A program made the translations under genes and the position numbers. Source: Antedon mediterranea (lineage: Eukaryota > Echinodermata > Crinoidea > Comatulida > Antedonidae). Taken from it: a stretch of DNA of 64,000 nt. Within the stretch, counting starts at the first letter, position 1; every line of letters begins with the position of its first letter. The stretch is from contig NC_092671.1 of the NCBI RefSeq assembly GCF_964355755.1, forward strand, positions 36,101,304 to 36,165,303, written 5' to 3'. The notes beneath the pieces are model-generated. The model was not told the DNA's origin, ran no database searches, and worked only from the letters and a program-made list of their open reading frames with translations. Shown piece after piece: positions 18,795 to 42,422 of this stretch.

Positions 18795-21700
18795 ATGAAA
18801 ACGCTCGATTCAGTTCGAGCCCCTCTGAAACTGGCACATGATGGTTTGTATTTTGATTTATTTACCTTGTAAAATCGTGCCTGTTTGTTGTGTGACTGAC
18901 TGTTGTGGTTTGTTGTTGTTTATTCACACTCTGTGACTGTTCTGTGTGTAACATGGAGTAAGTTAATCCTGTCAGGTGCGTGTTGGTATTCAATCACAGC
19001 GTGAGAATGGGTTGCCAATCATTTTATAACAACACATTAATATAGGCCCTTGTGCATAATACTTACTCGGAATTGTCCCCGAATTATCTTTTTTTTTTTT
19101 AATATGTATTAACTATTACCGGTATTTATTAATTATAAATAAATAGGCCTATGCCATTTATTTAAAATGTTGCATCCATTAAGTCTGCTCATTAATACTA
19201 ATAGTATTTTAATACGCCGTGGCTAAAGATACGGTACCGTATTCTAACTTCTGTTTACTAAAGGTACGGTAAAATTGCATTACGTCATAATCAGCCAATG
19301 GGGTGCTGGTACGTGTGTGACGTCATCGTATAAGGACTTGGGATTTTTTTTCATATCGCGTCTGTTGTGTTTGTTGTGTAGAGAATCGCTATCGGCGGCG
19401 GCGCCAGGCTGCGTGGATGTGTGTGCGCTGCAGATGAGGGTTTTATTTTTATTCCAAATGGCCTATTTAGGCCTATATTTTTTATTAAACTTTGTTTACA
19501 ATGGTGACCATAAACAACAAGCAAATGCAGACAATAAAGGGGCCCTCAAATACTATGATTTAGACAGTAGCCCCAGGGCTAACGAGTCACAGAAATCAGC
19601 GCACACATGCAGCTGGCCCCAGCCTGGAATCGCTTTCCCTCTACACAAACAAACTCATATAATGAGGTTATAGTAGGCCTAGCCTAGGCCTCTTTTGAAA
19701 CGGTTTTCTGTATTCTAGAATTAAAATCAACATGTTTTGGCTTTTCAATAATAATAACAGACGTAGGCTACATTTAGTTTTTGTCACACACGACGGCGAT
19801 AATAGCGATAAATAAAGCATAAAGAAAATGCGGTTGATCACTGTTTTCGCGATATGAAAAAAATCCACAAAGTCCTTATACGATGACGTCACACACGTAC
19901 AGCACCCCATTGGCTGGTTATGACGTAATGCAATATTACCGTACCTTTAGTAAACAGAAGTTAGAATACGGTACCGTATCTTTAGCCACGGCGATTTTAA
20001 TAAGTACAGTATAACAGTTATTCAATTTAAGCAAAAATAGATTAGGGAAAAAAAATATTTTACCTAATGCAAAGCAAAAATAAATACAGTAGTCAACTAA
20101 AAGTCACCTGCAGTCTGTCAGAATTTGTTTTTGTTTAATAACATTAACAATGATGCAAAGACATTTTTTTTTTAGCCAATCACATTGCAATAGTATAGGC
20201 CTAAGTAATGTTTTTTTTTAAATTATATTATTTATAATGATTATTTACCCCTCGTCAAATTTGTTTAGAAAAACAATTTCTATAAAAAATATTAATGAAC
20301 CAACATAGGCGTATAATATTGTTTTAAAACGATTTAATAAAAAGTATTAAATAAAAATGTTCAGTCTCTGAAGCAAAATAAGGAGACAAGGAGTATTAGA
20401 TGTTTACGTTTGCAGGTGAAATTTTAAAATTAAATTCAAGTGCAATTTTCTTGTTCAAAGTTATGATATTAATAATATACTGTAAATAGAAATCATATTC
20501 TTTATGACATTGACAATACAGTACTTATGTATGTTTTTTGTAGATACACCAATGGATGTGTCAGTTCTAATGCTGGGCCAAAATCATCAAATTCCTTTCA
20601 GAGATGAACATCGATTCAAAGGATTTCCGGCTCATAACTTCAGCGAAGCTACCAAGCCATTGATAGGTCCACCCCCAGAGGATGATGACTTTCTGAACCG
20701 AAGCTTCAGGAAGAAACAACACTTTGTCAAGGGTATGGAAACTTTGATATTAAGATAAGCCTAGCGTTTTATCACTTCGCTCTGTTTAAAAATAAGAAAA
20801 CTTGGGTGTACAGTGAAATAGCATATCCTTTTATTTCAGTAATAATGTACTACAAAACATACTGTATGTACAATTTGCAATATTTGTAGAATTAGAATTC
20901 ACAAACGTCTCGCCCAATAGTCTATGTTTGCAATTTCAACACAAAATCTATATGTACAGCTACAGTAAGAATTAAAGTATGACGGATCATTTCACCACTG
21001 CCATTTAGCCCACCTTATTTTCAAAATTATTACACTTTAAAAGTTGTTTATTATCTGTAATATATAGTGGTTTTATTAAATTTAGCTACAAAACAAAGTA
21101 AAATTAAGAGAAAATATTTTTTTTAATAAACACTTTTAAATTATGTCTAGAATCTGCTTCGCACGTCCCCTATAAATCTGGATAAAAAAAATTATCCTAC
21201 CATAAGGAAAAAAAAAAATCGGGAAAAGAAGCGTAAAAAAGAGTAAAGTACTTTCACTTTTGATTAAAATACATTGTTTCAGCGCCGTGCTAATTTACTT
21301 TTTATTAGAGGTCACCATTGCCGTTGCTGTTGCTTGCGATATGAATTGCCTATTTTCACCTGAAAAATAAACGCATTTTGTTTCCTGTAACATGATATTG
21401 ACGCGTGTATCGTACCGATACTCGGGGCACAAACGATTCGTACAAAGGACAACGCTATACAACCGCGTAGGCCTACCTATTGTTTAAAGATCTATTTCAG
21501 TTCAAATTGCAAATCGTATACAGTATACCTGTATGATCAGATTCAAATATAGCTTTTCTTCTTCTGCTATTTTTAACGTTGCTTCTTTTATATAAAACTT
21601 TACTTTACTTTGTATAATAAGTTCCCTGTCCACAAGTATATGCTATCAATCAATATTTTTACGTATCGGTATGCAAATCTCATATATGATCAGATTTAAA

Positions 21701-24700
21701 TCCCTCTTCTTCTTCTGCTATTTTTAACATTGCTTCTTTTATATAAAACTTTACTTTACTTTGTATAATAAGTTCCCTGTCCACAAGTATATGCTATCAA
21801 TCAATATTTTTACGTATCGGTATGCAAATCTCATATATGATCAGATTTAAATCCCTTTTCTTCTTCTGCTATTTTTAACATTGCTTCTTTTATATAAAAC
21901 TTTACTTTACTTTGTATAATAAGTTCCTTGTCCATAAGTTGGTAGGTATTTGCTATCAATCACTATTTTTACTTATAGGTATGCCGCCAAACACAAAACA
22001 TGAAAATGTTCCTGGTAATTATTTGTTAAATCACCTTTTAATTAACTGTTTGTTGTTTAATATCTAACATGACTCCCACAATCACTCATTTCAAATGTGT
22101 TACCTTTTCACTGAGCATGCAAAGTAAATATTATGCCTTGACCGATTCTGGTACAGTGCAATCAGCCGCCGTTCATTTCAGCTATCATTTTACCCCAAAA
22201 TACCAATCCCTAGCTACGCAATGGTGAGTAAAGACGATAGTGAGTACAGTCTGTCTAACCCATGTACTCATTAATAATGATGAGTAAAGCTCTGTCTACA
22301 CTATCAAACTTTATGTGGCAAAAAAAATGTGATGTGTCTATATATGGACATGATGATGTCATATCACGTCCATATTAGGGTATATCGGTACCGTATTGGG
22401 TCACATCACACTTTTGTTTTGTCAAACTAGTTTGACTAGTCCACCTTTTTTAACTTAATTTCTATGTATATTTTATATGCAAATGACAATAAATTGAAGT
22501 AATTTTCCACTGATGAATGAATGAATAGTGTAGACAGACTGCTTTAAAGTTGTGAATTTATGCGTTCAACTTGTGGCTGAAATGACGCCAATTGAGATAT
22601 TCATTACTAATCCATTTAAATATTGTTATATCATTGCACTGTCTAATTCATCATTCATTAACTGCATCCAGATGATTTGAACCTAACACTTTAGTCACTA
22701 CGCAATATTATTGCAAGAATCCTATATTGCATTGAAATTCCTTGCCATTACTCAGCCAGCATGAGGTATAAGGAAAGGAATGTATCTATTTTTTCTGGAC
22801 TACCTGTATATAGAAACAGATACTAGATAGTATAACAGGTTACCGAGTTGGGAATAGATTTTCTCGGGCACTTAAGGCGTGAAATTTTATTATTATTTTA
22901 CACTTTTTAAAATTTATAGAAATTGTAACTTACAAATAGTTTGTTTGTATTATTTCTCTGCACATACACATATACATTGAAAAAACAAAATTAAATTAGT
23001 AAAAAAAAATATTAAAAAATTTAACTGTATTACTTATGATTATAATACAATATATTTTGGACCAACAGTATTTAATTCAATTTCAATTAAAATTTATTCA
23101 TGTTGTCGTACACTTTTACATTGTATACAAAAAAATACTGGATAAAAAAAAAACTTGTCATAAAGCTAAAACATACATTTACTATAAAAAAAACTTTCTC
23201 AAAAGACTAATCAAACTATACAGAATAAAATTGTCACCAATTTTCAAAAGAAACAAATTCTTGCTGTTTTCCATTTCTATTTTGATTTTCATGCATAAGG
23301 CATATAGTTGATATTCTATTCTAACCTCATATGCCAACACTAACTAAATTTCACAATTATGTCCATATTTGATCAGAAGAAGATTTGACATTTGTCTAAA
23401 ATATTGATTGCTTCCATGGTGTTGATAAACAACTTAGACATAATGATTGATTGGAGACAATGCAATTAGTAACAGTTACACAGTTACACAGTTACACAGT
23501 TACACAGTTACAGATTTTGTATCTTCTTAACAATTTAATTCTCTATTCATGATCAAAAACCTACTAACACCATTCGATATCAAATTTATTTATTATGAAT
23601 AATAAGAATTAATAATATATAACATTTTCTCCATAATTTATCATAAATCACTATTAAGCTGAGCAGTCTACACTATCAAACTAGTTTGACAAAAACAAAG
23701 TATGATGTGCCCAAATATGGTAGTGATATGACATCATCATGTCTATGGTCACATCACATTTTTTGTCACATTAAGTTTGATAGCGTAGACAGAGCTTAAA
23801 ACCTTTCGATATCAAATTTATTGATTGTGATTAAAAATATGAATAGTAAATCACATTTTCTCCAAAATTAATCATAAATCACTATTAAAGTATTTATTTA
23901 TTTATTCTTCTTTCGTTCACAGTAATTGGAAATATCATAAAAAAACATAATTAATTAAAGAAAAAACGAGATCAAAATTATAAATAGAGAAAATATACAT
24001 TAAAAATAGAAATCAAATAGAAATTAACAAAGATGTATTGCTGTATAAGAATCAAATTCCAACTATAATTTTAAAAGTGTACAATTATTTTTTCGAGTTG
24101 ATTGGGGAGAATGTTTTCATGAGTTGAAAGATTGATTGTTTAACTAAGCTGAGTTAAATGGAATAGTGACAAGGATACATTTACTTACAATGTGTTATGA
24201 TATATTAACAATCAAGTTGCTTATTCACCTAACCAGTGGCGTAACAGCTATGAGCGATCACTGGCTAAACCAAGGGGCCTTGGATCCTTATGGGGGCCCC
24301 AGAGGAAACAGGCTAAAAACGCCTGAGGCATCCAACTTTGGAGGGCCACACTTAGGGTTCCTAAACAAGTAGCCTCGGGCCTCTATGTTACGCCAATGCA
24401 CCTAACCCATTATTTTTACTAATAATACTTCAAGAGGGTTATGTTTTGAAGGTACTGTTTTGTATCACCACTTGCATGCCATTCCCATCTCCCTTAAAAC
24501 CATAACTTTTTGTGTTTATTGGGATTCTTTTGTAATAATTTATTTATTTTTACTGCCTATTTTATATTGAAATTATGTTTTCTGTAAATGGTTACAGTAT
24601 TTTATGATCTCACGAACTAATTAAAGGTTTTTTGAGTTTACTGCCTAAAAAGATGGAAACAAATTTTGGACCGAGTAATGTCGGAAGATGTAAAAGGTTA

Positions 24701-27700
24701 AGAAATGGAATTGACTGGTTTTTGGACTTTTATGTGTTTTTATGTCAATGTTACAAAGACAAAACATTTCAATTGAACACTATCTTTTATATTTATTCAA
24801 TTATTTTGAATTTATTAAATTATTCTAATTTATTCAATATTGTATTTAACAATTTTATAATTTATTTCTATATTTTAACATATTCACATTTTTATTTTAT
24901 TTAATGTTCTTATTTTCAACATTTTATTATTTCGGGAATGATTAGATATAAATTTTTTTACAGGACGTGTAACTGACCCAGTGCCAGACAACACTCTAGA
25001 ATACGGTTCTAATAGATTGGCACCGAGTAGGGTCGAACCAGTCCCTTTGAAGACCTTGTTCTACAAGGAAGGCGTCACGTAAGAAAAATATATACATATA
25101 ACAATGATGATAACTTGCACTGATAAAAGCACTACAAATTTTTTTGGCTGTTTTACTTTACTGTTGTGATTTAGCTTTTTGCTTATTTATCTTGTATCTC
25201 CATTGAGATCCAGCCACTGATAGTAACCATAGCATTGTCATTTTTTCAGTAATTTACCTTTTTAAAGAAAACGCTGTGTAATTGTTGTATTTTACACAAA
25301 TGTTTTTACACAAGTCTTTATCTATCCATCAACACTGGCTGATTATGATCATTACTTTGGAAATATACAAATTTAGTAAATTTTAAAACATTGGATAATT
25401 TTCAGGTCAGCAGAAAACAGGAAAAGAGAGGCACAATTGAAAGATGCAATGGAAGATATAGCAAGAAATAAAACAGTTAAGATGGAAAAACAACTGACAG
25501 CTAGAGAGGAGAAAAAAAGAGTATGTAACTTAAAACTAATAGATCATGAAAATATAAAAAACCTAATTTGTTCACTAAATAAAATGAAATGTAAGATATT
25601 TAGGACAAAGAGGTTAGTTAGTTTTCGTTTGCATTTTTGCAATAACATTTTTTTTTATACAGTACAGTATACTCAAAGAATTAAATTATCAATCCATCGT
25701 CACAAACTCTGAACGAAAAATTTCTCCAATCAGAGCGACTTATTCATTTTTCTTTTCGTATAATTTTCTATAATTTTTATCTATGTGGTTTTGGGACGTC
25801 CTCTTGGTCTCTTGACTCTAGACAAAGAAATTATGTTCTGATTAAGTGTATTAAGTTTTTGCAATTTTGCAATATCAAAATAATTTGTTCATTCAGGACT
25901 TACAGATGTTAATAGATTACAAGCCATGGGGGAAACCTGGAGGTGGAGCGCCAAAGCCAGATCAGAATATTAGAACTAAAGCTGTTGATGCAACGGTGCT
26001 ACACAATGGGAAATCAGTGGTAAGCAGATATTTTAGTTTGGATTTTGATTTACATTTACAAAATGCCCTGGGTGCCATGCCATAGAGGTATAACATTTGA
26101 TAACTTCAGATTGTGACGTTAAACAATTTATTAATGTTTTTTATCAGGAGAAGTTTCTTACGTTTGGAAAGCCAGGACACGGGGCACCGTTACGCACAAG
26201 TTCCGGTAATCCCATCACTAGTATTCGCGCTAATAACGATATTAGATTCTGTGATCTTAAAGGAATGAAGGAAACCGTTAACAATCATGCACGATACGCC
26301 ATGCCCTGCAAGGACGTACAATCGTACGCCGAAGAGCTAGGTAAGTTTCTTTTCTTTTTTTAATGAATCTACTATTTATTGATTCGCACATAATTGTTTA
26401 ATTTAAAAATGGAAACAGGAAAAGAATCTTTAGAATTCAAAATAATATGCAGCTGATCAAATTATTAATAATACTTCAAGAGCTTAAATGTATATTATGC
26501 TGACAACAGCCATGTTTACCGATGACAATCAAAATATTGTTTAAAATTAATCAGGTGCACTTATTAATAATTATTAATACGTCTTGACAATGTACATGGC
26601 TGTAGTAAGTCTATTGTATTCCGAAATTAATTAACTGAAGTTAGTTTTATGGAATAGCTTAGCACGCAGAATATATAACAATAGTATATTTTTTTAATTA
26701 AAAATAAGAATATTGCTTTATTTATTTAAAGTAAACGGCAGTTAATTGAATTGAATTTAATTTAATTTAATGGAATATTGCTTAGTGCATAGGATATTAC
26801 AATTTATGATATATTTATTTATTTTATTTTATTTATTTTATTTTATGATATATTTATTTAAAAATCAAAAACTATGAATACTGTTGTATTTATTTAAAGG
26901 AAATAACACTGTTGACAATACTTTTTAATGATGGAATAACTTAAAAGCATAGGATATAGTACAATATACGGTATATATTTAACAATAAAAACAAAAGTTT
27001 TGTTTTATTGATGTATTGTCCCTTGAAACACAAAAAAATGAAGGTCAAAATATACTAAATTTTGATTAGCCATATCAAAAGTAATATTAAAGTTATTCAC
27101 TTTAAGTCGAAAATTCGAGCCAAAAACAACAAGTTTACGTAATTTACAGGTAAATTTATTTGATTACATTTCGTCTGGAAAATCATCGCGAGCGAAAGTA
27201 AACAAAGATTTCAAACTACGAGTATGTATTATGCATGATGCTAATTAGGATTGTTTACAACTCGTCATGGTTGAGAAGGTATTTTCACACAGATCGCGAG
27301 AAAGTTTTATGATTATGCATACAGAGTAGCCAAACAAGCGCGTTGCATTATAAGATATGTTTTGATCCAAAACTTTGACTGGACAAAAAAAAAAATTTTT
27401 TTCGAATAATTTTTGGTGAAAGTTAATACTGTAACTATTATGATACTTCAAAATGACCCACTTTTTTTCGAAAACTATTTTTTTAATTTTTTTGGAATTA
27501 GTCAAAGGGACAATACATCTTTAACAAAAAAAAAAATAATACTGTTTTATTTATTTAAAGCAAATGGCAGTTTTATGGAATAGCTGTGACGCACATGATA
27601 TACTGTATTACAATATACGGTATATTTATTTAACAATGAAAACAAAAGAATACTATAAGATGGTCATAAAATAATGTGACATTTAATTTCATTTCTTAAA

Positions 27701-30700
27701 TCATGAATACAAATTCATCTTCAGCTCTTTATTTTGATTAATATTCAAACTTATTGAAGTAATGTTAGGCAGCTGCAAACCATTCTAATGAGATATAAAT
27801 AAAAGCTGCATTCAGACTTGTTAAGCTCTGTCTACACTGTCAAACTTAATGTGACAAAAAATGTGATTTGCCCATATGAAAATGATAATGATGTCATATC
27901 ACTACCATATTTGGGCATATCACTACCATATTTGGGTACTGTACATCACACTTTTTTTGTCTATTTTCACGCTGCTGCTCTAGCCCGCTACGTCACATGA
28001 GATGACTCATTCATTAGCAGCCCACGAAATTCAGAAAAAAGAAGGTCGGCAAAAAATTGCCGACCTTAAATTCGCCAAGGTCGGCAGTCTCGGCAGTTCT
28101 AAAAATAGAAAATTCACCCCAAGGCCTAAACCTCTTGCTAACCTAATAAAAGGCCTAGCTAGGCCTAGCCTGCCTAGCTATATGTTATGCAAAAAGAACT
28201 AGCAAAAAATAAAATATAAAAACCTAACACTAAAATCTACAAGATAAATTCTATTTAATAATAATTGCTGAACATCATGGTTCTGGAGCTTGCCGTACAC
28301 AGAGCATAGTTGCTTGCTTGGCATAACAGGGTATTCCCCTACACAGGTCTGTGGCGCCCAGCGCTGTGCCCAGCCAGCTTGGTTGATAGGAAAGCATGCA
28401 GCTCACACACAAAATGATGTAATGGTTGAGTGAATTCAGGGATCATCTTAATTCCATGGTTTGTTAACTAAACACAACATGGTGGTGAATATGCCTGTTA
28501 AAATTTCAATGATACGATCCCTTAAAGTACCATGTTGTTGCTAGGAGGCTTGAAAGGAGGGATCTAGCCTAGTTTCTAGGTCGGCAATCTCTTGCCGTCC
28601 TCTGACAATTTAAGGTCGGCAATAAGGTCGGCAATTGCCGATTGCCGACGTGAAATTCGTGGGCTGCATTAGATGAAATCAAGCAGCAGTATAGTACTAC
28701 ACTTTGACATTTTTGTTAAAATGGAAACTCGACTATAATTTATAGGTACCACCTGTTGAATCCAAAAAACGGCTGGGAAAAGAGTCTAATGACAAATCCC
28801 AGAGCATTTCTGGTATTTATGAGTCCCATGATATTACTATAATTCACTGTCAGATAATCATTGAATTATTATCAAAACAGTTCATTGAAGTTTTTGTTTG
28901 TACTGTAATAGGATACTTGAAGTATCTAGGCGTGATGAAGTGACCCCCAGACTTGACCTTAGCAATAACAATAAGCGAGCAGCGTTTTTTGTAAGAAATA
29001 TTCTTGTTTATTTTATTTTTTTTTTTATTTATTCGACTTCTCACTAAGTTAGTGAAGTATCTGGACCAACAGGTGGTAAACACCTGTAAAACGGTCCAGT
29101 CCCAATTTGCACAGTGGCTGTGTGTGACAGTGGCTGTGTTTGTGTGGACTAGTAGTACACAGGGGTAACCCCTACTTGTCTCGAAAGATGTACTAGGTTC
29201 TTTAAAGTGCGCATGAGCTATGTGTACACTGGACCTACGGTTTATAGTCCTTATCCGAGAAGACTCGGACTAGTTTTGTCAAACTATAGTTTAATAGTGT
29301 GGACAGAGCTTTATGTTTTACAGGGAAAATAATAGAGAATTATATAAAGCAAGATAATGGTCCGTCTTCCATTCCAGGACATGCCGAAAGTGTGAATGTA
29401 CAGTAGCTGTCTGAGTATTATATCTGATTAAGATTTTGGATATACTGTAGTAATAAAACATAACATTTGTTTTCCAGAGATAAATATAATATGTTATTTA
29501 AAATTAGTATTAAAACAAATGTGGTTAAAAGGATGAACATTTTTTAATTTAAATGATTGTTTTTGGTTTAGATGTACAAACATGTTCATTTTACAAAAAA
29601 AAATATATTACTCATTATAAATTAAAAATTTATTTTTATTTGTAATTATTTAAACTATTTAAATGTTATTTAAAATTAACAATAAATAAATGTGTTGGGA
29701 TTGTCTTTGGTTCAGATGAAAAATATTTTACTTATTAACTATGATAAATTGCATTCATTTTCAGGAAATATGGCACTTGCAAAGAAAACTCAAAGAGAAA
29801 TAGAGCGTTACCAAGAAAAACAAGAGGAGAAAGAAACGGTAAGATTGTCATAGCAACCATTAGACTACTCAATCATTGCATGGAGGATGATCATTGTATA
29901 TACTACTTTCTGAAGTATGTTTTTGTAAACTGTAGTTGTTGCTATGGAGATGAAGAAAGGTTGGGGTGAACCATTGTTATGCATCTAAAAATAGATGTCA
30001 ATGTTTATTAATAAATTACTTTATTACTAAGTTAGTAATAAATCATTTTATTTTGGAAAAGACAACCAATTTTACCTGAAATTTAAATTGTTGAATAAAT
30101 TTATACAGTAAATATGTAATTACATATATTGTGAAAAATATTTTTTAAAAAGTTTTTTTTATTTCAGTGGAAGCATGATCCTTTTGGGATGCCTGGAGGT
30201 GGAGCCCCAATCAAGACTAATTCAGGTACAGGTCAAAGTTCAAAGCACATTTTTATGTCTTTAGGATCAAGTTAACAAGTTGTGAATGCCAAAAATTAGA
30301 ATATTAATTTATTAAAAAAGACCTTTTTTAAAGAAATGTTATCTCTATCCTACATGATTTTCAGGCCACAAGTAGTATTAAGCCTTGTCTACACTATCAA
30401 ACTTTATGTGACAAAAAAATGTGATGTGGCCATATATATGGACATGATGATGTCATCACTACAACCGTATTTGAGCACATCACTACCATATTTTGGGCAC
30501 ATCACACTTTTTTTGTCAATCTAGTTTGATAGTGTGGACAGAGCTTTACACATCATGTAATGAAATGTGTAGAATCATAAATGTTGGTATTTCTATTTTT
30601 ATAGTAAATGCATAAAATTGATTTTCATTAAAATCAAGTTCTATTTTTAAAGGCAAACTGCAAACTCGTCATAACATAACATTGATTAATGATCAAAAGG

Positions 30701-33700
30701 AAATGAGAGATACTGAAGAACGGCATCAACGAAAAAATGTAGTAATGTCAAATCGTAATGGTGAGTAAAATGTACAGTTTTTAATAAAGGTCATGGGTCA
30801 TGTAGACTATGGTGATAATCGGCAAAACATTAAAAAAGTTTACCTTTCAAAAGAACTAAATTAACCACACATTCCATATTGTAAAGCTCTCGTGTCTATA
30901 TTATCAAACTTCATGTGACAAAAAAATGTGTACCCATATATGGATATGATGATGTCATATCACCATATTTGGAAATATCACTACCATATTTGGGCACATT
31001 ACACTTTTTTTGTCAAACTAGTTTGATAGTGTAGACAGAGCTTAATAATAAGTGAGTAAGACTAGATTGGCTGGCACATGTGTATAACCTGTTAACATTA
31101 AGTTAATGCGTGTGTGCTTATGTGATTTAAATCCGGTGATGAAATTTTACTGAACAATATAATGTATTTCTCCAGAACTTGTAGTTGAGCTTTGATTATT
31201 TAAATTAATGAGCATATAAAAGAACCAATTAGGTTAGTATAAAAAATAGAGAGAAAAGGAAATTCATCAATTTGGCAATTCTGATATTTGTTAGGTTTCT
31301 ACGACAACTTAGTTGACACGGTATCCATGACAACAGTAAAATTGTATCATCTGCATCTGTTCTGTTGACAATAATAATCCTACAGCCACCTGCAAATTGT
31401 TTTTTATGAGGCGGTTTATCAATGTAATTTGACTAGCAACTACCCCCAACTGCTCAAAATTAAATCAATCCAATTTGAACAATACTAAATTTGATAATGT
31501 AAATACTGAAAGTGTAATTTCAAATGAAGAGGAATTGTGAATACAAAACAAATAAGAAAAATTTCTTTACAGAAATAATTGCATAGTTGCGTATTGTTGT
31601 TTGTTTTAGCCGCATGTTGGTTGTTTTTGATGTGTTAGATGTGTTGTATGTTGCTCCGAATCAACTGGCTAGTGGTTTGAGATTGAAATATACCATTTGT
31701 GTTGAATGGCTGTAACATATAGTTTATTAATTTGATGTACATGTAAATCTCTGTCCACACTATCAAACGTTTGTGACAAAAAAATATGATGTTTTGAAGA
31801 ATTTGTTAAAGAATCTCTTTCCAATATCATGAAATCACAAAATAACCTTGAGAGTAAATTAGCTGAATCTATTAAATTCAACGAAGAAAGAATTATTGCT
31901 CTAGAAAAGGCTCAGTCGCGATACGAAGCTAGGCAGGCGGAATTCGTCGACGATTTGCATACAGCTCACAACACAATTGCGTCTATGCAGGCTGAGCTAA
32001 ACAAGGCTGAACGCTTCTCCAGGAGAAATAACATTCGCATTGTAGGAATCGCTAAATCTGATAACGAAAACCCAATCAACATTGTTGAAGATTTCTTAGC
32101 CACTCATTTTAAAATTAAACCGACGATTGAGAGAGCCCATCGAGACGGTCTAGGATTCCAAGGAAAGCCGCCCCATATACTCTTTAAAGTGCTATCATAT
32201 GTTGACAAAGTAGCAATCCTCAAAAACCGACATAAACTTGCTAGTCCAGGTGCCTACATTATAGACGACCTAACTCGCACGGACAGGCAAGAAAAGAACA
32301 AGTGGAAGACCCAAGTTAAAGCCCTGTATGATCAAGGAATCAAGCTTAGGTTCAGAGCCGGGAAATGGCGTTCATCAACTGGTATCCCACATGTGTTTAA
32401 GTAGTAACCTGTTTGCACAATGATGAACTCTATCCAGCTTCATCTATCCAAGAAGAACTTTTTTTTTCCTTGACTTTACATAATTATATCATTTTAAAAT
32501 ATGCAATATCGTTTTTCCGTTAGCTGTTCATTATTACTATATTACATCGTATTATTATATCGGGAGCTCCTGTTTTAATTTGCTCCTGTTTTAATTTACT
32601 TCTGTAAATGCACTCTTATCATATCTTGTTTTTTTGTTTTGTTTATGTATTATTATTATTGTTATTATTTACTATATTGTTTCCTATTACCATTTACTTT
32701 ATATTCAGTGATGCTTCTCAAATTGTTAAATCGCTGTCAAAATGATGTCTGAGAATTATTTTTGTCATCTCCCATTCCATGATTTTATTATAGATTCTGA
32801 TACTATTAACCATAGTGATATATCTAACATTATTATAAACCCCCTTGCTCATACTGAATATGATAAATTTGATGAACATTCCGAGCCTCTTGCCAACCAA
32901 TTAAATTCTAGAAATTCGACACTCGAGGATTGTATATACTATGACACTAATCATTTTAATACCACTTTTAGAAATGTTTCAAATTCCCTAATTTCTCTCT
33001 TTCATGTTAACATTAGAAGCGTTACAAATAAAACTGATTCCCTTGAACAATTTTTAAATTCAATTAATTTAAAATTTTCTATTATTGGTCTCTCTGAGAC
33101 GTGGTTGAATGACACGTCACCTACTCCCTTCTTGCATAATTATTCATTTATATCTAAAAATAGGCAATCTGGTAAAGGTGGTGGCGTAGCTTTTTTCGTA
33201 AAAAACGATCTTAATGTTAGAGTTCGTCTTGATCTATCGATTTCTCAACCATATGATTCCCTTTTTCTAGAAATAGTACATCCTAATAAAAAAAATACAA
33301 TCGTTGGTGTAATTTACCGTCCTCCAGATGGTAATATTGATCATTTCTCCAAATCCTTCGATGAACTCTTAAATAAAATAAATTCTGAACATAAACCCTG
33401 TCATATCATGGGCGATATAAATATTGATATCATAAAATATCAAAATCATATTCAAACTAATAATTATATTGATATGTTACTTTTTCGCTCATTTTATCCA
33501 ACAATTTCAAAACCTACTCGAATCACACCGACTACCGCCACCTTGATTGACCATTTTTACACCAATATTATTGATACAAAAATACATTCTGGTGTATTTA
33601 TTTTTGATATATCCGACCACCTTCCTATCTTTCATATAGTAGATGAAAAATTATACCATACTGACACCAACAATGTACCATCTCGTATAATAGATATTGA

Positions 33701-36700
33701 TGCTTTGTGTGGTGATTTGGTTGAGGAAAATTGGTCTGAGGTTTACGATTGTGACCAACCCGTATCTTTTGATAAATTTCTTAACACATTCTATAAAATT
33801 CATAATAAACATATTAAAAATAAATATAATGTATCAAATAAAATTAAAGCAAAACAGTCTTGGATGACACCTGGCTTAATTAAAAGTAGCAAAAAGAAAC
33901 AAAAACTTTATAAAAAATATATTTATTCTCATGATATTCAACATAAAAGTATATACACAAATTATAAAAATATGTACACTAAACTCTGTCGAACCGCCAA
34001 AAGAATGCATTATATATCAAAATTTCAAAATGTAAAATGTAACCTTAAAAAGACCTGGGCTATAATAAATTCTGTATTAAGACCAGAAAATCGAAACAAT
34101 TTCCCATCCCTCATAAATAACGGTTTTGAAACAATTACATCAACTAAAGAAATATGCGATTCATTTAATAAGTACTTTTCAACAGTTGGTTCAAATTTAA
34201 ATAATTCTATGCCTGACCCTCATATTGACCCAATCTCATATTTACCAAATCCAATTTCTCAATCCTTTTTTATAAATCCTGTTACAAAAGAAGAAATAAT
34301 AATTATTGTCAACAATTTAAATCCTAATAAAGGATCTGGTGACGATAATATCACTTCACGTACGATCAAACAAATACTGCCGTACATAATTGACCACCTT
34401 ACCTTCTCTATAAATTGTTCATTCTCATCTGGTGTATTTCCAAATTTATTAAAAATAGCTAAAGTTTTCCCAATCTTTAAGAAAGGTGACAAGGGCCAAG
34501 TTAAAAATTACAGGCCTATCTCCCTTCTTAGTGCTTTTTCTAAGATCTTAGAAAAACTCATGCACCAGCGACTCTATGATTACCTTACTAAATTCAACAT
34601 TCTTTATACTCACCAATATGGCTTCCGTCATAACCATTCCACATCCCATGCAATTCTGGATCTTGTTAACAACATCACCTCATCTCTTGACAATAAACAA
34701 TTTTTACTCTCCGTTTTTATAGACTTGTCAAAAGCTTTTGATGTCATTAATCATAAAATTCTTCTTGGTAAATTATTTAATTATGGCATTAGAGGAATTG
34801 CATTAAACTGGTTTGAAAGTTATTTAGTAAACCGTAAACAGTATGTTGCGTTAGGCTCATTTAAATCATCAGTGGAGGCTGTAAATTGCGGAGTGCCTCA
34901 AGGGTCGGTTTTAGGACCACTACTATTTTTAATTTATGTAAATGATCTTTCTAGATCAAGTGACACTCTGAAAGTCATATCCTTTGCTGATGATACTACG
35001 ATTTTGTTTTCTCATTCTGATATCAATGTCTTATATAACACCGTCAACACTGAACTAAATAAAATGACTGACTGGTTCATCTCAAATAAGCTTATTGTTA
35101 ATGTACAGAAAACTAATTACATTTTATTTCGTACTCAACAAAGACAAATTGATTTCTCTAATCTTAATATTTACATTAACAATAAAATTATTGAACGTAA
35201 ACCTGAAGTACTATTCCTCGGAGTTTATCTACATGAATACTTGAGATGGACCAGTCATCAAGCGTATGCATCTAAAAAGATATCTAAAGTAATTGGCATC
35301 CTTTGTAAATTAAGACACTTTTTTCCACAACATATCTTACTCTTGTTATATAACACCCTTATACAACCTCATCTTCTTTATTGCAACATTATTTGGGCAG
35401 CCGACTACCCATCAAATTTAGAAAAACTTAATAAACAAATTAAACGTGCTGCCCGTATTATTACTTTCTCTCACTATCTCGCCCCTTCCCAACCTTTACT
35501 TAAAAAACTCAATATTCTTAGTCTACATGATCTTTTTACAACACAAATTGCTTCCTTTATTTTTCAATTCTTTAATACCAAACTCCCTGTGACAATGTCT
35601 AATCTATTAAGTCATCATACAAAATCACACAAGTACTATTTACGTATCGACAATAAATTTCAGCATCTTGATGTACCTCCTTTTAGACTGAAAATTTCCG
35701 AATATTTTATTTCTGTTTCAGGACCGCGAATCTGGAATGATCTTGATGATAAACTAAAGCATTTTAAATCTCTTTATACTTTTCGTAAAAATTTTAAAAA
35801 ATATCTTATTTCTTTATACTAATTTTAATATTATTATGATTGTAGTACACTGAAAGTATCTATTTTTATTTCATCGTTTTTGTTTTTATTTATTATTTTA
35901 TGTAGTAAATTGTATTAGTTTAAATGTATGTGTATTGTTTCTGGGGTCTTTCTCGAGACAAGAAACTTGTTTTCTTCTAGAGAAGACCCCAAATGATGGC
36001 TCATTACTATGTTTTCATTTATATATATATGGACATTGTACAGTATTTATATTTCGTTTTTAATTTTCTTTGTATTGATGGCAGCAATTGAATAAATAAA
36101 AAGAAAATGATGATGCCATATCACTACTATATTTGGGCTGATTTCGGCAGAGCTTTAGAGCTCTTTTTGACAATTTTAGAAATTAGTATATTATGACTTT
36201 TATGTTTGTAATAGTATGTTGATTTTAATTGTTGTTATTAATATTTTGGAATTATGTGAAATTTATTTTCAGACACAGAAGTTGATTCAACATTTGTTAA
36301 TAAGCGGCGTCCACTTTACGAGGTAAGTTCAGCTTTCAACTAAACTTTTTCTTTTAAACTTGAATTAACTATAAATAATTAATTATATTTTTTTTTCATC
36401 AACATCTATAAATCTTGTTTTGGACTATATCTGTATGTTGGATGAATTGACCTTTCTGCTGTTTCTAAACATTACAACTTTTTAACATTTTCAAACTATT
36501 TTTATTTTCAGAAAGAAAAACCATATGATCCTTGGGGTAAAGGGAGTGGAGCTCCGAAACGTGATGAGAAAGGGCGTTTAATGCGTCACACTTGGGGAAA
36601 CGAATTAGGAGTTACAGATTTTATTGACCCCTCAGCAACAGTGAGTGGTATTGATTAACCTCCCAACGGAACTATATAAATAATTATTTACCGGCAACTT

Positions 36701-39700
36701 CAATTCATAGCGTCTGATTGCTTAATTGCCGATCTATACAGTAGTTATTTCCATGCTCTCGAACTATAGACCGAACTGTGCATGTCTGTTTCCACTATCT
36801 TCAATACAGTCGAATCCAAACATGCTATATTTTTAACCATGGCCCTTAGCCCAGTAAATATTTGTTTACTATAATATAACTATTATTTTATTGGACTCAA
36901 CTTTTCTATTGTTATCTCTTTCTATAAGTTATTTCTTGTTTGTAAACTGTTTTAGCTCTGTAGACAATAACATGTTCACATTAATTCATGTTTGTATAGG
37001 GTGGTGCATTAGAAACAAAGTCATTCGGAGGTGGGGGCGTCAACGTCGATGAAAGAGGTGAAAAAAGAACAAAGTTTTCTGTTACTTTAGACCATGACAG
37101 AACTGGTGGTAAGTATTTTGAATTAAGTATTTACATTTAAATTCCTATACACTTTATACCATAGAGATATTATTGCTATGCTAATACACACACAGTATAA
37201 ACATATTTTATGTATTTGACACAAAATACGGTGCAGTCCAGTAACAAAAAAATCCAGAAAATGAAAACTTAGGTAATTAATTATACTCAGTCTAGAATAT
37301 TCTTAATTATTTAAATGTAAATCATTATATTTTTTTCTGAAGGTTTTCGTAAAGCTGTTGGCCAATCAGGTATCAATTTCTTATAATTTGCACATCTGCA
37401 AGGCACTACTTCATATTCATGTGATTTCTATCATTGATATAATGAACTTTCTACTACTGTGGTATAGTCTCATACTATCCTCATAATTTATTATCTATCA
37501 CTTTCATTGTTGCTGTGTATCTACTGTTATGACTGACGACACACTAAAGCTCTGTCTACACTATCAAACTTTATGTGACAAACAAATGTGTCCATATATG
37601 GACACGATGTCATATCACTACCATATTTGGGAATATCAATACCATATTTGGGTATATCACTACCATATAATACCAAATTATCACTGGTTGCGCATGCCAA
37701 TATTATATTATGATGCACTTATCTAAATGCTCACTTCAGGTACATCAGTCTTAACTCTCAATTACAATTACAAAATATATTACTGTTTTTTTATAACAAA
37801 TTTGCATGTATTTCCAAACTTTTGTGAATGGTTTCTAATGAATACAGACAGTCACAAAATGTTTTCCTCTTACTTACAGTAGGACCTGCTTCTATTAACA
37901 CATTTTAAAAATTGAATTCATTTCATTATTTATTCGGTCTAATTCAATATATACATAACAAAAAAAACTGAAATTGGGGAGACCAGGGTCAACCTAAGTG
38001 AACTTAATCACTGTAGCTGAGCCGGAATGGAATAATAATTGTTGCATACTGGTTGTTTTAATGTAAAACAACATTATTATGTCAGCCATTGACCTTTGGG
38101 TCAACTATCTTGACCACCTGAGCCCTTAATGAAACCAGTGATACACTTTTTTCATTGTACTACAGTTAACTCTCCCAATATCAATTCATTAAAAACTTGA
38201 AACTCCTAAAAGATTCTTGAAATTTAACATTTCCAAGGTGGAATTAACTCTTTCTCATAGTTTAGTTATTTAATATAATACACTTTATATAATACCTAAA
38301 TAAATTCCTGTCATTTGATTGGATGATTGTGGGTCACATGATGTGCAATAGTACGCACTATTAAACGATCGTACAATTATTTGTACCATTACACTCATAA
38401 ACATTCATTATTTGTATAATAGTATACTATAGTAATAGTATAGTTATAGTATACAGTATTAAAAGTGTTTTGCATCTTTTTACTAACATTTTTAAAATTT
38501 TCTTAAATCTAATTCAAAACAGGTTTTTTTTTCACCCATTAATTTGTTGTGGTTTAACATAATGCACTAACTTCATGCTTTTATAGTATTCATACAAATA
38601 ATGTGTACAAATGTAACTTATTTATAAACGTTGGATCTTCCACTGAACAAAAACAAGAACAGTAGGTTAATAAAATTTATTGTTTAGTAAGTGAGTGGCC
38701 GAGCGGTTAAGACAAGAGAACCGTAATTAAGTAGTCATAACGTTTGCAAGGGTTCGAAGCTCACTCGCTCTATGGTTGGTGGTAGAACGAGTCTTCTCGG
38801 ATAAGGACTATAAACCGTAGGTCCAGTGTACACATCTTGACCATGTGCACTTTAAAGAACCTAGTACATCTTTCGAGTGCGGGGTTACCTGGTGTACTTA
38901 GTACATCACAGCCACTGATCATAACTGAGCCCTCTGGGAAACCAGTCTTTGACTGAAGAGGTCACCCAGTATAAAATAAAATATTTATTAATGATTCATA
39001 ATATTATTTAATCAATATACTATGTGTATTTCACAGAACCAATTCTTAAAGAAAGTGATCGGACAAAAGTAGCAGGAGGCTTTGACCCTTGGGGGAAACC
39101 TGGAGGTGGTGCTCCTCTGAAGGATGAGAAAGGTAAAAAAGCTACTACAATCAGTGGAAAAATGATGACAGATAAATTTGGATATGAAAGGCCGAAATTT
39201 GAAGAGTTGAGAGCAAAACAGGAATATCTATCTGAACTTCGTAAGTGTTTTTTTTCTCTCATGCAACTGCAAATGACAAAAACGTTTCTGAATTTCAAAA
39301 GTAGATTTTTAAAAATATGTTTATGTTTAGTTAAAAACTGTCATACAGTAATATTTGAAAATAGCATGTACATTGTTAATTTGATATTATTTGATAATAT
39401 TGATTGTTGATTATTATTCGATACGATACGAGGAAAAGTTTATTGCAATTTCAAATAAAAAATTTAAAATTGAAGTTTAACAAAATTATTGTGAAAATAT
39501 ATAAAATATATCTCTTCAACATAATTAATGATATAAAAATACGTATTATTCACATATGGGACATCAAAAAAGAAAAACAATAAAATAAAGATTGACGTAA
39601 TAAGTAGAAAATGAAGATCTGCCATTAACTTGATAAGGAGGAAAATATTTGATACAAAGTATGAACAGGTTATATTTTAGGCAGCAGAAACACTCACAAA

Positions 39701-42422
39701 TATAAAATATATTATACAAATAATGAATGTTTATGAGTGCAATGGTACAAATAATGGCACGAGGTGAATGATGAAAGGTTATATCAACGAGGCAAAGCCG
39801 AGTTGATATAACCTTTCATCATTCACCAAGTGCCATTATTTGTACCATTACACGAATACAAAACATTCATTATTTGTTTTATATAACATCTAGACGTTTT
39901 TTTTTTCGTACACAAAAATGTTTCAAAAAGTACTATTTAACGATCGTTGAATAGTGCGTACTATTGCATGCCATGTGACCTACATTTGTCCAATCAAATG
40001 ACAGGAATTTATATAGGTGTTATATAATATAGTATAGTACATAAATTGTATTTTTAAATTTAAAAGAAAATGGAATAAGTGAGCAGCAACAATTAAGAAA
40101 AAGCTTAGAAGATGAAATGAAACAAGCAGGTAATGAGGTCGGACCATGGATCAGGGAAAAAGAGGTTGGGTACCCAAAGAAGGACCCTATCACTGGTGTA
40201 CTGCTTCCGAAACAACACAAAGGGGCTTCAGATGTCACTAAACAAGTAAGTAACTTTAATTTAAGTTGATGACTACTCCAGAACTTATGACAAACCGAGT
40301 GGAAAAAAATTGGCCATTTAAAAAAATTTAACAAACTGGAGTCCCAAAACAGGATGGCATGTATTCATTCACACTACCTATTAGTTGAAATGTTTATATT
40401 GTTCCATAAAAGTGAAATGTTTTTTGCTTATTTTGTTTTCGTAGAGAATGGACATTCGTCGACCTGCTAGGCCATCACAGGTGACCATATACAGCAGCGA
40501 TCTTGAACGGCAAGCCATGGAAAGGCAGTTGAACAAGGCTGTAGAAAAGCAGTTTTCAAGGGATTTGTCAGCTCAGGTAAAGTAGGCCTAATGTTTTTCA
40601 GTCATGTCTGTTGTCAGCAAGACACATCAACACAAATCAAAAACAAAAGAATAAAAAGGCAGGCGCGGCTCCCGCTTTAAAGTATAGAAGAGGGTGTGTG
40701 AAACCCCCTCTGAAAGAGGTGAGTTTTGAGAACAGATTTAAACATTATCTTGGTTTGTTTTTATTTAGCATCATGCCAACTTTGAACGTGTTTGGGGTAA
40801 ACCAGGAAATGGTGCACCAAAGGCCACTAACAACCGTCTATCTCTTGACATGGAACGAGATTATCAGGTAAGCATGTTCCTTTAGCCGACAGTCGAACTG
40901 TGTTTGGTCTAATATGTCTGTTTTTTTAGAAATTCTGCCATTTCAAATGTTTTGATTAATTATAGCCTTCATTTGTACGATCAGTTTTGACATGTATTTG
41001 TATCTGCTGATATTATCTCAATCTTTCTTGGTAACATCACCAAAGTAATCTTATTTTCCACTATAGATTCATTCTTTTAATGCTTGCTGGTTCATTTACT
41101 AACCGCTCATTAGAATTCTTTCTTACATCTGCATTATCTATTGCATGAAATAGTTACATTTGCATTACATGTGCTTCTGTAGGGTGATAGGCAATACCAA
41201 GCACCATGGAAGCAACCCCATGCTACCATTCAGGTGAAGAAACCCTGGGCTCGAACCACAGCCCTTGAGAATCGTTTCAATCGATACTCTGAACAAAATC
41301 TACCGCAGGTAATAAAGAAAAATGAGTGTACTAACATAATATTATTACGTAATTCTGATTTAGGAAAATTAACAATTCTTCTATAGTAAGCTTGGTTCCC
41401 ACTTTGATATAACAAAAGGACTAAGTGCACCGCATGCAATTTAAACCAATCACAAGATGATAGCTCATCCAAACTTAGCTTGTGATTGGTCAGCTCACTT
41501 ATTTTGTGCCTACTGTACGTCATTGAATTTCGTCCACGTGGGAACCAAGCTCAATTAACATAATTCTTTAAACATAATTCTTATTCAATATTATTATTTG
41601 TTGTTTGTTTTTTTTTAAAGGTTTCAGATTAAAAGATTTTTTATTTTTCCATAACTTTTTGATGACATATTTGTACATATCATTAGTTTTAGGAAATAAA
41701 TTGATTTTTATTGATTTTGATTAAAAAGAGACAGCATTTCTTTCTGTAAGAAAGTTTATTTTTTCTTTGTAGCAGAAACTGTGGTATTTAACAATTTCTG
41801 CTAAAAGGAAAAATTAAACATTACCTTGTATTGGGGAAAGACACAAAAGTGGGAAAGAGTACATTTGTCATTACAAACATTATTAATCAACCAATTTTTT
41901 TCAGTCAAACTGAAATATAAACTAGGGCCTAGAAAAAAAAAAAATTAATAAAATAAAAATATATGTGTATATTCATACATATATATTTGGATTGATGGAA
42001 AGACGTTGGCCCCATGTACATATAGTGCCTGTTAAAGATGGTGCACTATTCAAAAAAGTATTGGATCGTCTCGCAGAGTGTCGATCTGGTAGGCGCTGTA
42101 CTGATGGCTTCCTTTCTAAAGCTCTGTCTTCACTATCAAGCTAGTTTGACAAAAAAATATTTTAGTGATATGCTTAAATAAAGTAGTGATGTGACATCAT
42201 CGTGTTCATATATGGGTACATCACATTTTTTTGTCACATACAGTTTGATAGTGTAGACAGAGTTTAACAGTTAGGCTTGAGGATCAGAATAAATACCTTT
42301 ACTAATGGAAACTAGTACTAGTAGTTTAAAATTAAAGTAAAGACTAATAGTCTGTTGGGATTTATTTTTTTCAGCGAGCAGTTCCTGTACGTGCTCCATG
42401 GGCAACATACAGCCTACAATAG
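18795..42422 (+). CDS. Multi-repeat WGKPGGGAP-motif protein (CSPP1-motif-like, probable ciliary/microtubule protein)
   Basis: Nineteen coding exons: 18795-18843, 20544-20732, 24964-25078, 25406-25520, 25897-26019, 26148-26340, 29765-29838, 30168-30225, 30653-30760, 36273-36322, 36512-36640, 37000-37108, 37343-37369, 39037-39240, 40067-40245, 40445-40576, 40769-40867, 41183-41308, 42375-42422. All junctions are GT-AG and the phases chain without a break to 708 residues. Six copies of [WF]G[KM]-x(2,3)-GAP start near residues 167, 203, 292, 366, 465 and 627, often preceded by DP/YDP and followed by a basic, G-K-rich tail (LKDEKGKK). Charged helical stretches (KREAQLKDAMEDIARNK; REIERYQEKQEEKE) lie between; the C-terminus has PW motifs (APWKQ, KKPWAR, APWATYSLQ). 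Human CSPP1, a centrosome/ciliary axoneme protein, has one such motif (WGKGGGGAPL). I do not know a named protein with six. The start could instead be an in-frame ATG at 18666. An X-box lies upstream. Confidence 0.85.
19215..19993. mobile_element. Non-autonomous DNA transposon with ~150-bp terminal inverted repeats and 9-bp duplication (MULE-like)
   Basis: Ends CGCCGTGGCTAAAGATACGG and its inverse bound the element; about 150 bp at each end are inverted copies (for example ttctgtttactaaaggtacg; ccaatggggtgctg). ATTTTAATA is directly repeated at 19206-19214 and 19994-20002. Long inverted repeats plus 9-bp duplication are the Mutator-like signature. The inner 480 bp has a GC-rich start (ggcggcggcgccaggc) but no transposase. 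Each arm has a perfect TGACGTCA at 19318-19325 and 19884-19891. It lies in the first intron of the WGKPGGGAP gene. Confidence 0.85.
21532..21990. repeat. ~152-bp tandem repeat, three units
   Basis: The unit with gatcagatt, ttcttcttctgctattttta, ataaaactttactttacttt and aagtatatgctatcaatcaa starts near 21534, 21686 and 21839. Units 1-2 and 2-3 are nearly identical apart from a few substitutions and a short insertion (ggtaggta) in unit 3. Confidence 0.9.
22286..22548. mobile_element. Family A MITE copy with ~90-bp insertion in its right arm
   Basis: Left arm and core are normal (agctctgtctacactatcaa; catgatgatgtcatatcacg). The right arm stops at agtttga near 22434, then about 90 bp of unrelated sequence follows before atagtgtagacagactgctt completes the end at 22527-22548. 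Confidence 0.75.
23659..23799. mobile_element. Family A MITE copy, inverted orientation
   Basis: Starts cagtctacactatcaaacta and ends gatagcgtagacagagctta; the core reads atgacatcatcatgtc, the inverse of copies such as 4.6 kb. One inner unit. Confidence 0.85.
24234..24398. mobile_element. hAT-like MITE with 8-bp duplication
   Basis: Ends CAGTGGCGTAAC and GTTACGCCAATG are inverted repeats (one mismatch near the tip), and CACCTAAC is directly repeated at 24226-24233 and 24399-24406. The 8-bp duplication and CAGTGGCG tip are standard for hAT elements. Interior has no transposase. Confidence 0.85.
26341..27821. other. AT-rich part of intron 6 with an inverted-repeat element
   Basis: 27008-27524 is bounded by tgatgtattgtcccttg and caaagggacaatacatct, an inverted pair sharing the tattgtccc tip with the 7.4-8.1 kb array. 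26750-26900 is a low-complexity ttaattta/ttattttat run. The word actgttgtatttatttaaag recurs at 26.88 and 27.54 kb, suggesting a local duplication. No exon seen. Confidence 0.45.
28017..28667. mobile_element. Nested inverted-repeat DNA transposon with GGTCGGCA hairpins
   Basis: Ends GCAGCCCACGAAATTCA and its inverse (one mismatch) bound it, with ATTA on both sides (28013-28016; 28668-28671). Just inside each end are repeated ggtcggca/tgccgacc words (for example gtcggcaaaaaattgccgac), forming internal hairpins. No transposase; superfamily not assigned. Confidence 0.75.
29010..29268 (-). repeat. SINE body, minus strand, head missing
   Basis: Reverse copy of the family at 38.7 and 6.84 kb: T-rich tail at 29009-29036, then gtactaggttctttaaagtg and ggtttatagtccttatccga, ending agaagactcg. 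Lies at the right junction of the split family A element. Confidence 0.7.
30380..30548. mobile_element. Family A MITE copy, near complete
   Basis: Starts gccttgtctacactatcaaa and ends tagtgtggacagagctttac. Two inner units (accgtatttgagcacatcac; accatattttgggcacatca). In the intron between exons 30168-30225 and 30653-30760. Confidence 0.88.
30882..31044. mobile_element. Family A MITE copy, near complete
   Basis: Left tip has a 2-base insertion (agctctcgtgtctatattat); right tip is canonical (gatagtgtagacagagctta). Flanked by TA on both sides. Confidence 0.88.
31829..32404 (+). CDS. LINE ORF1 protein, N-terminally truncated
   Basis: 191 residues from the first ATG. Residues 1-65 form a charged coiled coil, then ERFSRRNNIRIVGI opens an RRM-like domain, followed by IERAHRDG, PHILFKVLSY and the C-terminal LKNRHKLASPGAYIIDDLTR region typical of L1-type ORF1 nucleic-acid chaperones. 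The open frame reaches further upstream (FEEFVKESLSNI before the ATG) to the insertion joint, so the start codon used by the parental element is lost. ORF1 proteins coat the element RNA in the retrotransposition particle. Confidence 0.85.
   Translation: MKSQNNLESKLAESIKFNEERIIALEKAQSRYEARQAEFVDDLHTAHNTIASMQAELNKAERFSRRNNIRIVGIAKSDNENPINIVEDFLATHFKIKPTIERAHRDGLGFQGKPPHILFKVLSYVDKVAILKNRHKLASPGAYIIDDLTRTDRQEKNKWKTQVKALYDQGIKLRFRAGKWRSSTGIPHVFK
32742..35822 (+). CDS. LINE ORF2: endonuclease-reverse transcriptase, intact
   Basis: 1026 residues with no stop or frameshift. The N-terminal apurinic-like endonuclease shows LFHVNIRSV (about residue 85), GLSETWLND, GGGVAFFV, GVIYRPPDG, MGDINIDI, TLIDHFYTN and the SDH triad end at D292-H293. 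The reverse transcriptase shows FPIFKKGD, NYRPISLLS, FIDLSKAFD, GVPQGSVLGPLL and the catalytic FADD at 748-751, followed by a C-terminal region with LGVYLHEYLRW and a QPHLLYCNIIW-type motif. Such proteins nick target DNA and copy the element RNA in place. Domain order and wording fit the CR1/L2 group. The intact frame argues for a young insertion. It ends with taa at 35820-35822. Confidence 0.95.
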   Translation: MMSENYFCHLPFHDFIIDSDTINHSDISNIIINPLAHTEYDKFDEHSEPLANQLNSRNSTLEDCIYYDTNHFNTTFRNVSNSLISLFHVNIRSVTNKTDSLEQFLNSINLKFSIIGLSETWLNDTSPTPFLHNYSFISKNRQSGKGGGVAFFVKNDLNVRVRLDLSISQPYDSLFLEIVHPNKKNTIVGVIYRPPDGNIDHFSKSFDELLNKINSEHKPCHIMGDINIDIIKYQNHIQTNNYIDMLLFRSFYPTISKPTRITPTTATLIDHFYTNIIDTKIHSGVFIFDISDHLPIFHIVDEKLYHTDTNNVPSRIIDIDALCGDLVEENWSEVYDCDQPVSFDKFLNTFYKIHNKHIKNKYNVSNKIKAKQSWMTPGLIKSSKKKQKLYKKYIYSHDIQHKSIYTNYKNMYTKLCRTAKRMHYISKFQNVKCNLKKTWAIINSVLRPENRNNFPSLINNGFETITSTKEICDSFNKYFSTVGSNLNNSMPDPHIDPISYLPNPISQSFFINPVTKEEIIIIVNNLNPNKGSGDDNITSRTIKQILPYIIDHLTFSINCSFSSGVFPNLLKIAKVFPIFKKGDKGQVKNYRPISLLSAFSKILEKLMHQRLYDYLTKFNILYTHQYGFRHNHSTSHAILDLVNNITSSLDNKQFLLSVFIDLSKAFDVINHKILLGKLFNYGIRGIALNWFESYLVNRKQYVALGSFKSSVEAVNCGVPQGSVLGPLLFLIYVNDLSRSSDTLKVISFADDTTILFSHSDINVLYNTVNTELNKMTDWFISNKLIVNVQKTNYILFRTQQRQIDFSNLNIYINNKIIERKPEVLFLGVYLHEYLRWTSHQAYASKKISKVIGILCKLRHFFPQHILLLLYNTLIQPHLLYCNIIWAADYPSNLEKLNKQIKRAARIITFSHYLAPSQPLLKKLNILSLHDLFTTQIASFIFQFFNTKLPVTMSNLLSHHTKSHKYYLRIDNKFQHLDVPPFRLKISEYFISVSGPRIWNDLDDKLKHFKSLYTFRKNFKKYLISLY
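35943..35990 (+). other. Stem-loop in LINE 3' UTR
   Basis: GGGGTCTTTCTCGAG pairs, with a few mismatches, with CTCTAGAAG.. read inversely as CTTCTAGAGAAGACCCC. The hairpin is about 120 bp after the ORF2 stop and 115 bp before the element end. LINE 3' stem-loops can serve as reverse-transcriptase recognition sites; that role here is inference. Confidence 0.6.
37343..37369 (+). other. 27-nt micro-exon of the WGKPGGGAP gene
   Basis: Between a tgaag acceptor (AG 37341-37342) and a gtatca donor, 27 bases encode GFRKAVGQS in phase 1-1, so it can be included or skipped without a frame change. Because it is so short the call rests on splice sites and phase only. Confidence 0.5.
37547..37676. mobile_element. 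Family A MITE copy, right end lost
   Basis: Starts taaagctctgtctacactat; core acacgatgtcatatcactac and three inner units follow; then the homology stops at accatataat with no right terminal repeat. Confidence 0.8.
38295..40025. repeat. Dispersed inverted pair with central long hairpin in an intron
   Basis: 38295-38420 (aaattcctgtcatttgattgg, gtcacatgatgtgcaatagt) is the inverse of 39930-40020. 39720-39880 is itself a near-perfect palindrome: aatggtacaaataatggcac and gaatgatgaaaggttatatc on the left, their inverses on the right, around a short loop near gaggcaaagccgag. Two copies of one element in opposite orientation flank exon 39037-39240. Confidence 0.7.
38688..38990 (+). repeat. tRNA-Ser/Leu-derived SINE
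   Basis: Head with gagtggccgagcggttaag (box A, as in Ser/Leu tRNAs with their long D-loop) at 38692-38710 and ggttcgaagctc (box B) at 38751-38762, then the body shared with copies at 6.84 and 29.0 kb, ending gtataaaataaaatatttat. It is the only copy here with its head. Not a functional tRNA gene: the acceptor stem does not close. Confidence 0.8.
41389..41556. mobile_element. Family B inverted-repeat MITE
   Basis: Ends taagcttggttcccacttt and cacgtgggaaccaagctc; central inverted ccaatcacaag / cttgtgattgg. Same tips as the elements at 54.08, 57.2 and 57.3 kb. Lies in the penultimate-to-last intron of the WGKPGGGAP gene. Confidence 0.8.
42117..42268. mobile_element. Family A MITE copy in last intron
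   Basis: Starts taaagctctgtcttcactat, ends gatagtgtagacagagttta; core gtgacatcatcgtgttcata. The final exon starts only about 105 bp downstream. Confidence 0.85.

Follow-up and report, generated by a model that had tools for sequence, protein, structure and literature searches.

CSPP1 is described, in the extracts available from PMC9948759, as a luminal microtubule stabiliser of cilium tips: residues 375-453 of the human protein, when dimerised, are sufficient to bind microtubules and to give rescue, the pausing domain spans residues 706-796, and helix H5 restricts lateral mobility, possibly via di- or oligomerisation. Variants of CSPP1 cause Joubert syndrome (extracts of PMC10995352 and PMC12170345), and CCDC66 shares a ciliary-tip module with CSPP1 (PMC12170345, in extract). 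Short motifs can position proteins in the microtubule lumen, the Mn-motif of the SAXO/MAP6 family being one example (PMC12228683, in extract). The subject of this report is a gene at positions 18795-42422 of a 64,000-nucleotide stretch of the genome of Antedon mediterranea (contig NC_092671.1), here called the window. Judged by its sequence, this gene is matched to no described family and carries the CSPP1 motif in multiple copies. The general idea of short motifs is common to the window gene, which is known from sequence alone, and to the SAXO/MAP6 proteins, but, compared by reading, the window motif is glycine-proline rich with W or F whereas the Mn-motif is helical.

The gene is predicted to consist of 17 exons with GT-AG borders, all on the + strand, that join into a single phase-consistent open frame of 665 residues. 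The original prediction had been of 19 exons and 708 residues; the phase-consistent open spliced frame was recovered in the rebuilt model and the two counts were not, and two candidate exons, at 40683-40718 and ~37013-37108, could possibly bring the model near them. In the genome searched (354 Mb in 18 contigs, taken as a whole), the gene looks single-copy and intact, with a predicted product of ~665-708 residues. The figure of 10^-20.7 for a frame open by chance is not a fair probability because the exons were chosen for being open, and it was not relied on. Exon 1 and the start codon are the least certain parts of the model. The charged helix-like stretches proposed to lie between the motif copies are present, by reading of the sequence, as are the PW-containing motifs at the C-terminus (APWK, KPWAR and APWATY). 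The elements of the gene are as follows.

18646..18658, + strand: X-box-like (RFX) site, a 13-mer 137 bases 5' of the ATG; weak evidence
18795..18843, + strand: exon 1, with the proposed start ATG; phase matches exon 2, donor GTTTGT; least certain exon
20544..20732, + strand: exon 2; AG/GT borders, phase kept
24964..25078, + strand: exon 3; AG/GT borders, phase kept
25406..25520, + strand: exon 4, charged helix-like stretch ahead of motif 1; from the joined model
25897..26019, + strand: exon 5, motif 1 KPWGKPGGGAP, phase-0 start; joined model and profile
26148..26340, + strand: exon 6, motif 2 LTFGKPGHGAP, phase-0 start; joined model and profile
29765..29838, + strand: exon 7, charged helix-like stretch ahead of motif 3; aligns with the stretch 5' of the motif in the CSPP1-like exon on contig C6
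30168..30225, + strand: exon 8, motif 3 DPFGMPGGGAP, phase-0 start; joined model and profile
30653..30760, + strand: exon 9, charged helix-like stretch; joined model
36273..36322, + strand: exon 10, small, restoring the phase ahead of motif 4; phase scan, perfect donor GAG/GTAAGT
36512..36647, + strand: exon 11, motif 4 DPWGKGSGAP, phase-0 start; joined model and profile; a stronger alternative donor, GTGAGT at 36641, would require one more exon if used
~37013..37108, + strand: candidate extra exon, uncertain; open, donor GTAAGT, weak acceptor, one genome match (itself)
39037..39240, + strand: exon 12, motif 5 DPWGKPGGGAP, phase-1 start; joined model and profile; sole other genome match of the C6 exon
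40067..40245, + strand: exon 13, charged helix-like stretch with a possible decayed motif PWIREKEVGYPKKDPITG (by reading)
40445..40576, + strand: exon 14, charged helix-like stretch ahead of motif 6; joined model
40683..40718, + strand: candidate extra exon of 12 residues, uncertain; phase-neutral, donor GAG/GTGAGT, one genome match (itself)
40769..40867, + strand: exon 15, motif 6 RVWGKPGNGAP, phase-0 start; joined model and profile
41183..41308, + strand: exon 16, motifs APWK and KPWAR; joined model
42375..42422, + strand: exon 17, APWATYSLQ and then the stop; joined model

Exon 10 was located by scanning for a segment able to bridge the phase between exon 9 and the exon of motif 4, and the join that it makes bears on whether this is one gene or two adjacent genes, one with motifs 1-3 (exons 1-9) and the other with motifs 4-6 (exons 10-17). 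Between the two halves lies a stretch of 5.5 kb that holds a long interspersed nuclear element (LINE)-like frame with reverse transcriptase and endonuclease domains:

31790-35819: LINE-like element within intron 9; frame 32730-35816 with RVT_1 (2.4e-36) and Exo_endo_phos (4.1e-8), preceded by a frame at 31790-32401

The presence of this element and the stop codon met at once when reading past the exon 9 donor fit a division into two genes, but exon 10 brings the frame back into exact phase and carries a perfect donor, and, within the exons to which this check was confined, no ATG in frame is present in exon 10, in the part of exon 11 that precedes the motif or in the open frames of 22 and 5 codons upstream of the two exons. 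A pair of adjacent genes is thus considered highly unlikely.

All six motif copies of the original prediction were found again, on the + strand and one per exon in six different exons. Motif 4 (DPWGKGSGAP) is one residue shorter than the other five copies, and all six agree at five positions (G, G, G, A and P). When profiles were built with one copy left out at a time, the omitted copy was recovered in every case (E-values of 1.7e-9, 4.3e-7, 2.8e-5, 1.5e-6, 1.7e-6 and 5.6e-6) from 2,975 open frames, or 106,371 residues, drawn from the window and seven loci (L002, L003, L009, L010, L011, L013 and L020). The six copies may have arisen through exon duplication, as suggested by the fact that five of the six motif exons begin in phase 0, 3-8 residues ahead of the motif, the exception being the exon of motif 5 (phase 1). 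The segment PWIREKEVGYPKKDPITG of exon 13 would be a possible decayed copy. An AlphaFold model of motif exon 12 with the five sister motif exons, built on a shallow alignment, has a mean predicted local distance difference test (pLDDT) score of 59.1 and no confident fold for the motif, which is compatible with a short linear motif; the prediction is otherwise uninformative.

The occurrence of the motif in the window gene exceeds chance by a wide margin. A DNA pattern for [WF]Gx[PG]GxGAP, which at its first position also allows C and L, gave 10 exact matches in 354 Mb, five of them in the window gene (one strand), against four for the backward control, and the pattern for GxPGxGAP gave nine, again with five in the window gene, against one. 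A laxer pattern gave 19 genome matches, including motif 4, and by itself proves nothing because its control gave 10; motif 4 rests on its profile score. Outside the window gene, the patterns matched at 27 places, namely one exon on contig C6 and 26 others (4 + 18 lax + 4 GxPGxGAP). All 27 were scored with the six-copy profile: the C6 exon reached E 6.4e-8, and none of the remaining 26 did better than E 0.093, the level of chance, so that these were rejected as motif genes; they comprise collagen-like (L021), FG-rich (L022) and glycine-rich frames and eight that share one FGSGNGAP frame. By the three DNA patterns, which would miss any motif interrupted by an intron, the motif is confined to two genes in 354 Mb, the window gene and the C6 gene.

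As a separate observation, the FGSGNGAP frame, LLYIFGSGNGAPKD, recurs at eight genome loci (L034, L035, L037, L041, L042, L046, L048 and L049) and is probably a dispersed repeat that resembles a short form of the motif by pattern only.

The C6 exon holds the one further convincing motif of the genome (C6:24134034), in the one copy found there, and the frames adjoining it are taken to be CSPP1-like pieces. Three fragments of human CSPP1, not drawn from a database, served as queries. Fragment 1 matched the C6 motif exon over 27 residues with 59% identity (E 3.5e-8) and, in the window gene, all six motif frames (E 9.8e-7 to 0.92); the second fragment gave a weak match (E 0.015) to a frame beside the C6 motif exon, and the third (H6) found no match at E 1, with low-complexity masking, in the frames compared. 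The C6 gene is therefore likely to be the CSPP1 orthologue of this genome, an identity resting on these fragments.

The original prediction had also linked the window gene to CSPP1 through the motif that the two share, and this link proves to be specific: in 354 Mb, the C6 exon has no match besides itself and motif 5 of the window gene (E 0.5, 52% identity over 21 residues), and in the search of 2,975 open frames the six-copy profile finds the C6 exon at E 9.8e-8. Both genes have the [WF]GK[PG]GGGAP motif, after which several copies continue with RD or KD and G; it recurs in all six copies of the window gene, and the charged stretch upstream is shared in one module, as module 3 aligns with the C6 exon over 34 residues (47% identity, E 3e-4) and the alignment extends into the charged stretch 5' of the motif. 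No further likeness was found in the part compared, a 9.9-kb stretch that covers part of the C6 gene: the 665-residue protein, compared by blastp with the open frames of this stretch (E 1, low-complexity masked), gave three matches, all to the motif exon. Unlike the likely CSPP1, with one motif copy found, the window gene has six copies and PW motifs at the C-terminus. The window gene was rejected as the CSPP1 orthologue because the better candidate is the separate C6 gene, which carries one copy; the sequence comparison indicates a relationship to CSPP1 through the motif module but not identity with it.

As the original prediction had it, no named family was found for the window protein in Pfam, in NCBIfam (C-terminal piece) or in the PDB. 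Searched as two pieces (341 and 307 residues, exon 10 left out), the protein matched no Pfam family at E 10; in NCBIfam, the C-terminal piece gave a lone chance match (E 0.32, far under its cut-off); and phmmer against the PDB, whose chains include axonemal inner proteins, found no relative, the two pieces together yielding a single chance match (E 0.74, from one of them). With 68 residues of exon 12 as the query, no relatives were found in viral and prokaryote collections, and a search of the literature for the motif string, judged by titles and abstracts, found no relevant use. The gene might instead be a full-length orthologue of a described animal protein with another function, lying outside the collections searched, and it is in favour of this that the eukaryotic genomes and proteomes searched consisted of this genome only. 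Nevertheless, neither of the two pieces met a Pfam family at E 10, the PDB offered nothing convincing and the motif strings had no relevant use in the literature, and such an orthologue appears fairly improbable. CCDC66, the ciliary-tip partner of CSPP1, is another gene of this genome, at 1.48 Mb of contig C9 (profile E 4.5e-6, over the family cut-off); its Pfam family, PF15236, has no match in the window protein.

For the function, roughly even chances can be given to the reading that the window gene encodes an undescribed multivalent, coiled-coil-like scaffold of microtubules or of the cilium or centrosome. The protein would be a series of charged helix-like segments, a number of which lead into a short linear motif, [WF]GKPGGGAP, with PW motifs at the C-terminus. 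The helices would self-associate, as is thought for helix H5 of CSPP1, the motifs would jointly provide multivalent binding to tubulin or to a partner at the microtubule end, and the outcome would be a ciliary or centrosomal microtubule scaffold. A bolder form of this reading, in which the gene belongs to a second, undescribed family using the CSPP1 motif, with six copies produced by exon duplication that lock onto the ciliary microtubule inside or at its tip, so that the motif would be an unrecognised lumen- or tip-binding element, is judged unlikely.

Several observations weigh against a scaffold that holds microtubules by its motifs. The successive copies are 36, 89, 74, 56 and 162 residues apart; the original prediction of regular spacing thus failed and, the spacing being irregular, a lattice ruler is ruled out. 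The search of the PDB with the six-motif profile found no solved structure with the motif. The evidence of the promoter for cilium control is weak. A relaxed X-box consensus has two sites in 64 kb against 0.87 expected, while the strict consensus does not match the site at 18646..18658, its single site in the window being at 48583, and the worm-type pattern, with 100 sites in 64 kb against 84.4 expected, is common. Control by RFX through the site at 18646..18658 is given little weight because the same 13-mer occurs at 10 other genome places, 8 of them within open frames of at least 55 codons; among the matches listed, a single duplicated stretch accounts for three of the 10. Finally, the human CSPP1 motif is assumed to lie just after H5, in L5, between residues 375-453 and 706-796, and, if it does, it would not be the main microtubule grip of CSPP1. 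The docking idea is weakened because the linker after H5, which holds this assumed position, is reported in the extracts of PMC9948759 to be dispensable for microtubule binding.

According to the same extracts, L5 and H6 are required for pausing and not for binding, and the minimal active construct, from which that linker and much more are missing, must be supplied at ~10 times the amount of the full-length protein for the same effects (PMC9948759). Docking on the lattice through the motif may thus be possible, although it is not favoured by the direct data on CSPP1; a role of the motif in pausing, geometry or partner binding would be as likely, and the ~10-fold need of the minimal construct leaves room for a motif that adds affinity. 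In the passages on CSPP1 available from the literature, no assigned role was found for the glycine-rich motif.

These data also bear on a related possibility, which is tentative and somewhat doubtful, that the motif copies bind a protein partner in common with CSPP1, for example a member of the ciliary-tip module, instead of tubulin, in a scaffold without a motif grip on the lattice. The part of L5 and H6 in pausing rather than binding (PMC9948759, in extract), the operation of the ciliary-tip module via contacts among CEP104, TOGARAM1, ARMC9, CCDC66 and CSPP1 (PMC12170345, in extract) and the motif without a confident fold in AlphaFold all agree with a partner, but no mapped partner of the motif was found in the literature passages available. 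Whichever molecule it binds, the six divergent natural copies reveal which positions of the motif matter, namely the invariant G, G, G, A and P, and a protein with six copies is a ready multivalent reagent for asking what the motif binds.

The window gene lies among three neighbours. Two of them, the PAP2 phosphatase and LOH1CR12, are like the CSPP1-like gene and CCDC66 in having the character of animal genes.

17264-17593: PAP2 family phosphatase, presumably glucose-6-phosphatase-like
47199-47432: AlkB-type 2-oxoglutarate (2OG) oxygenase
52431-52670: LOH1CR12

Repeats are present within the gene and around it. Intron 2 contains a tandem repeat of 151 bases (21532-21939, 2.7 copies, 96%), and an array of 53-base units (8.5 copies, 98%) lies at 9345-9794. 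Two tandem arrays of 141 bases, at 57799-58106 and 59498-59805, are separated by ~1.4 kb, and their units look mutually reverse-complementary. A dispersed element of ~155 bases, at 43330-43484 and, by eye, at other places in the window, matches itself on the opposite strand and has at least 83 matches in the genome, with 40 of 2,626 candidates scored. Elsewhere in the genome, at C3:4026800-4031800 (L026), both strands have long open frames built of short KRITNLF-type repeats.
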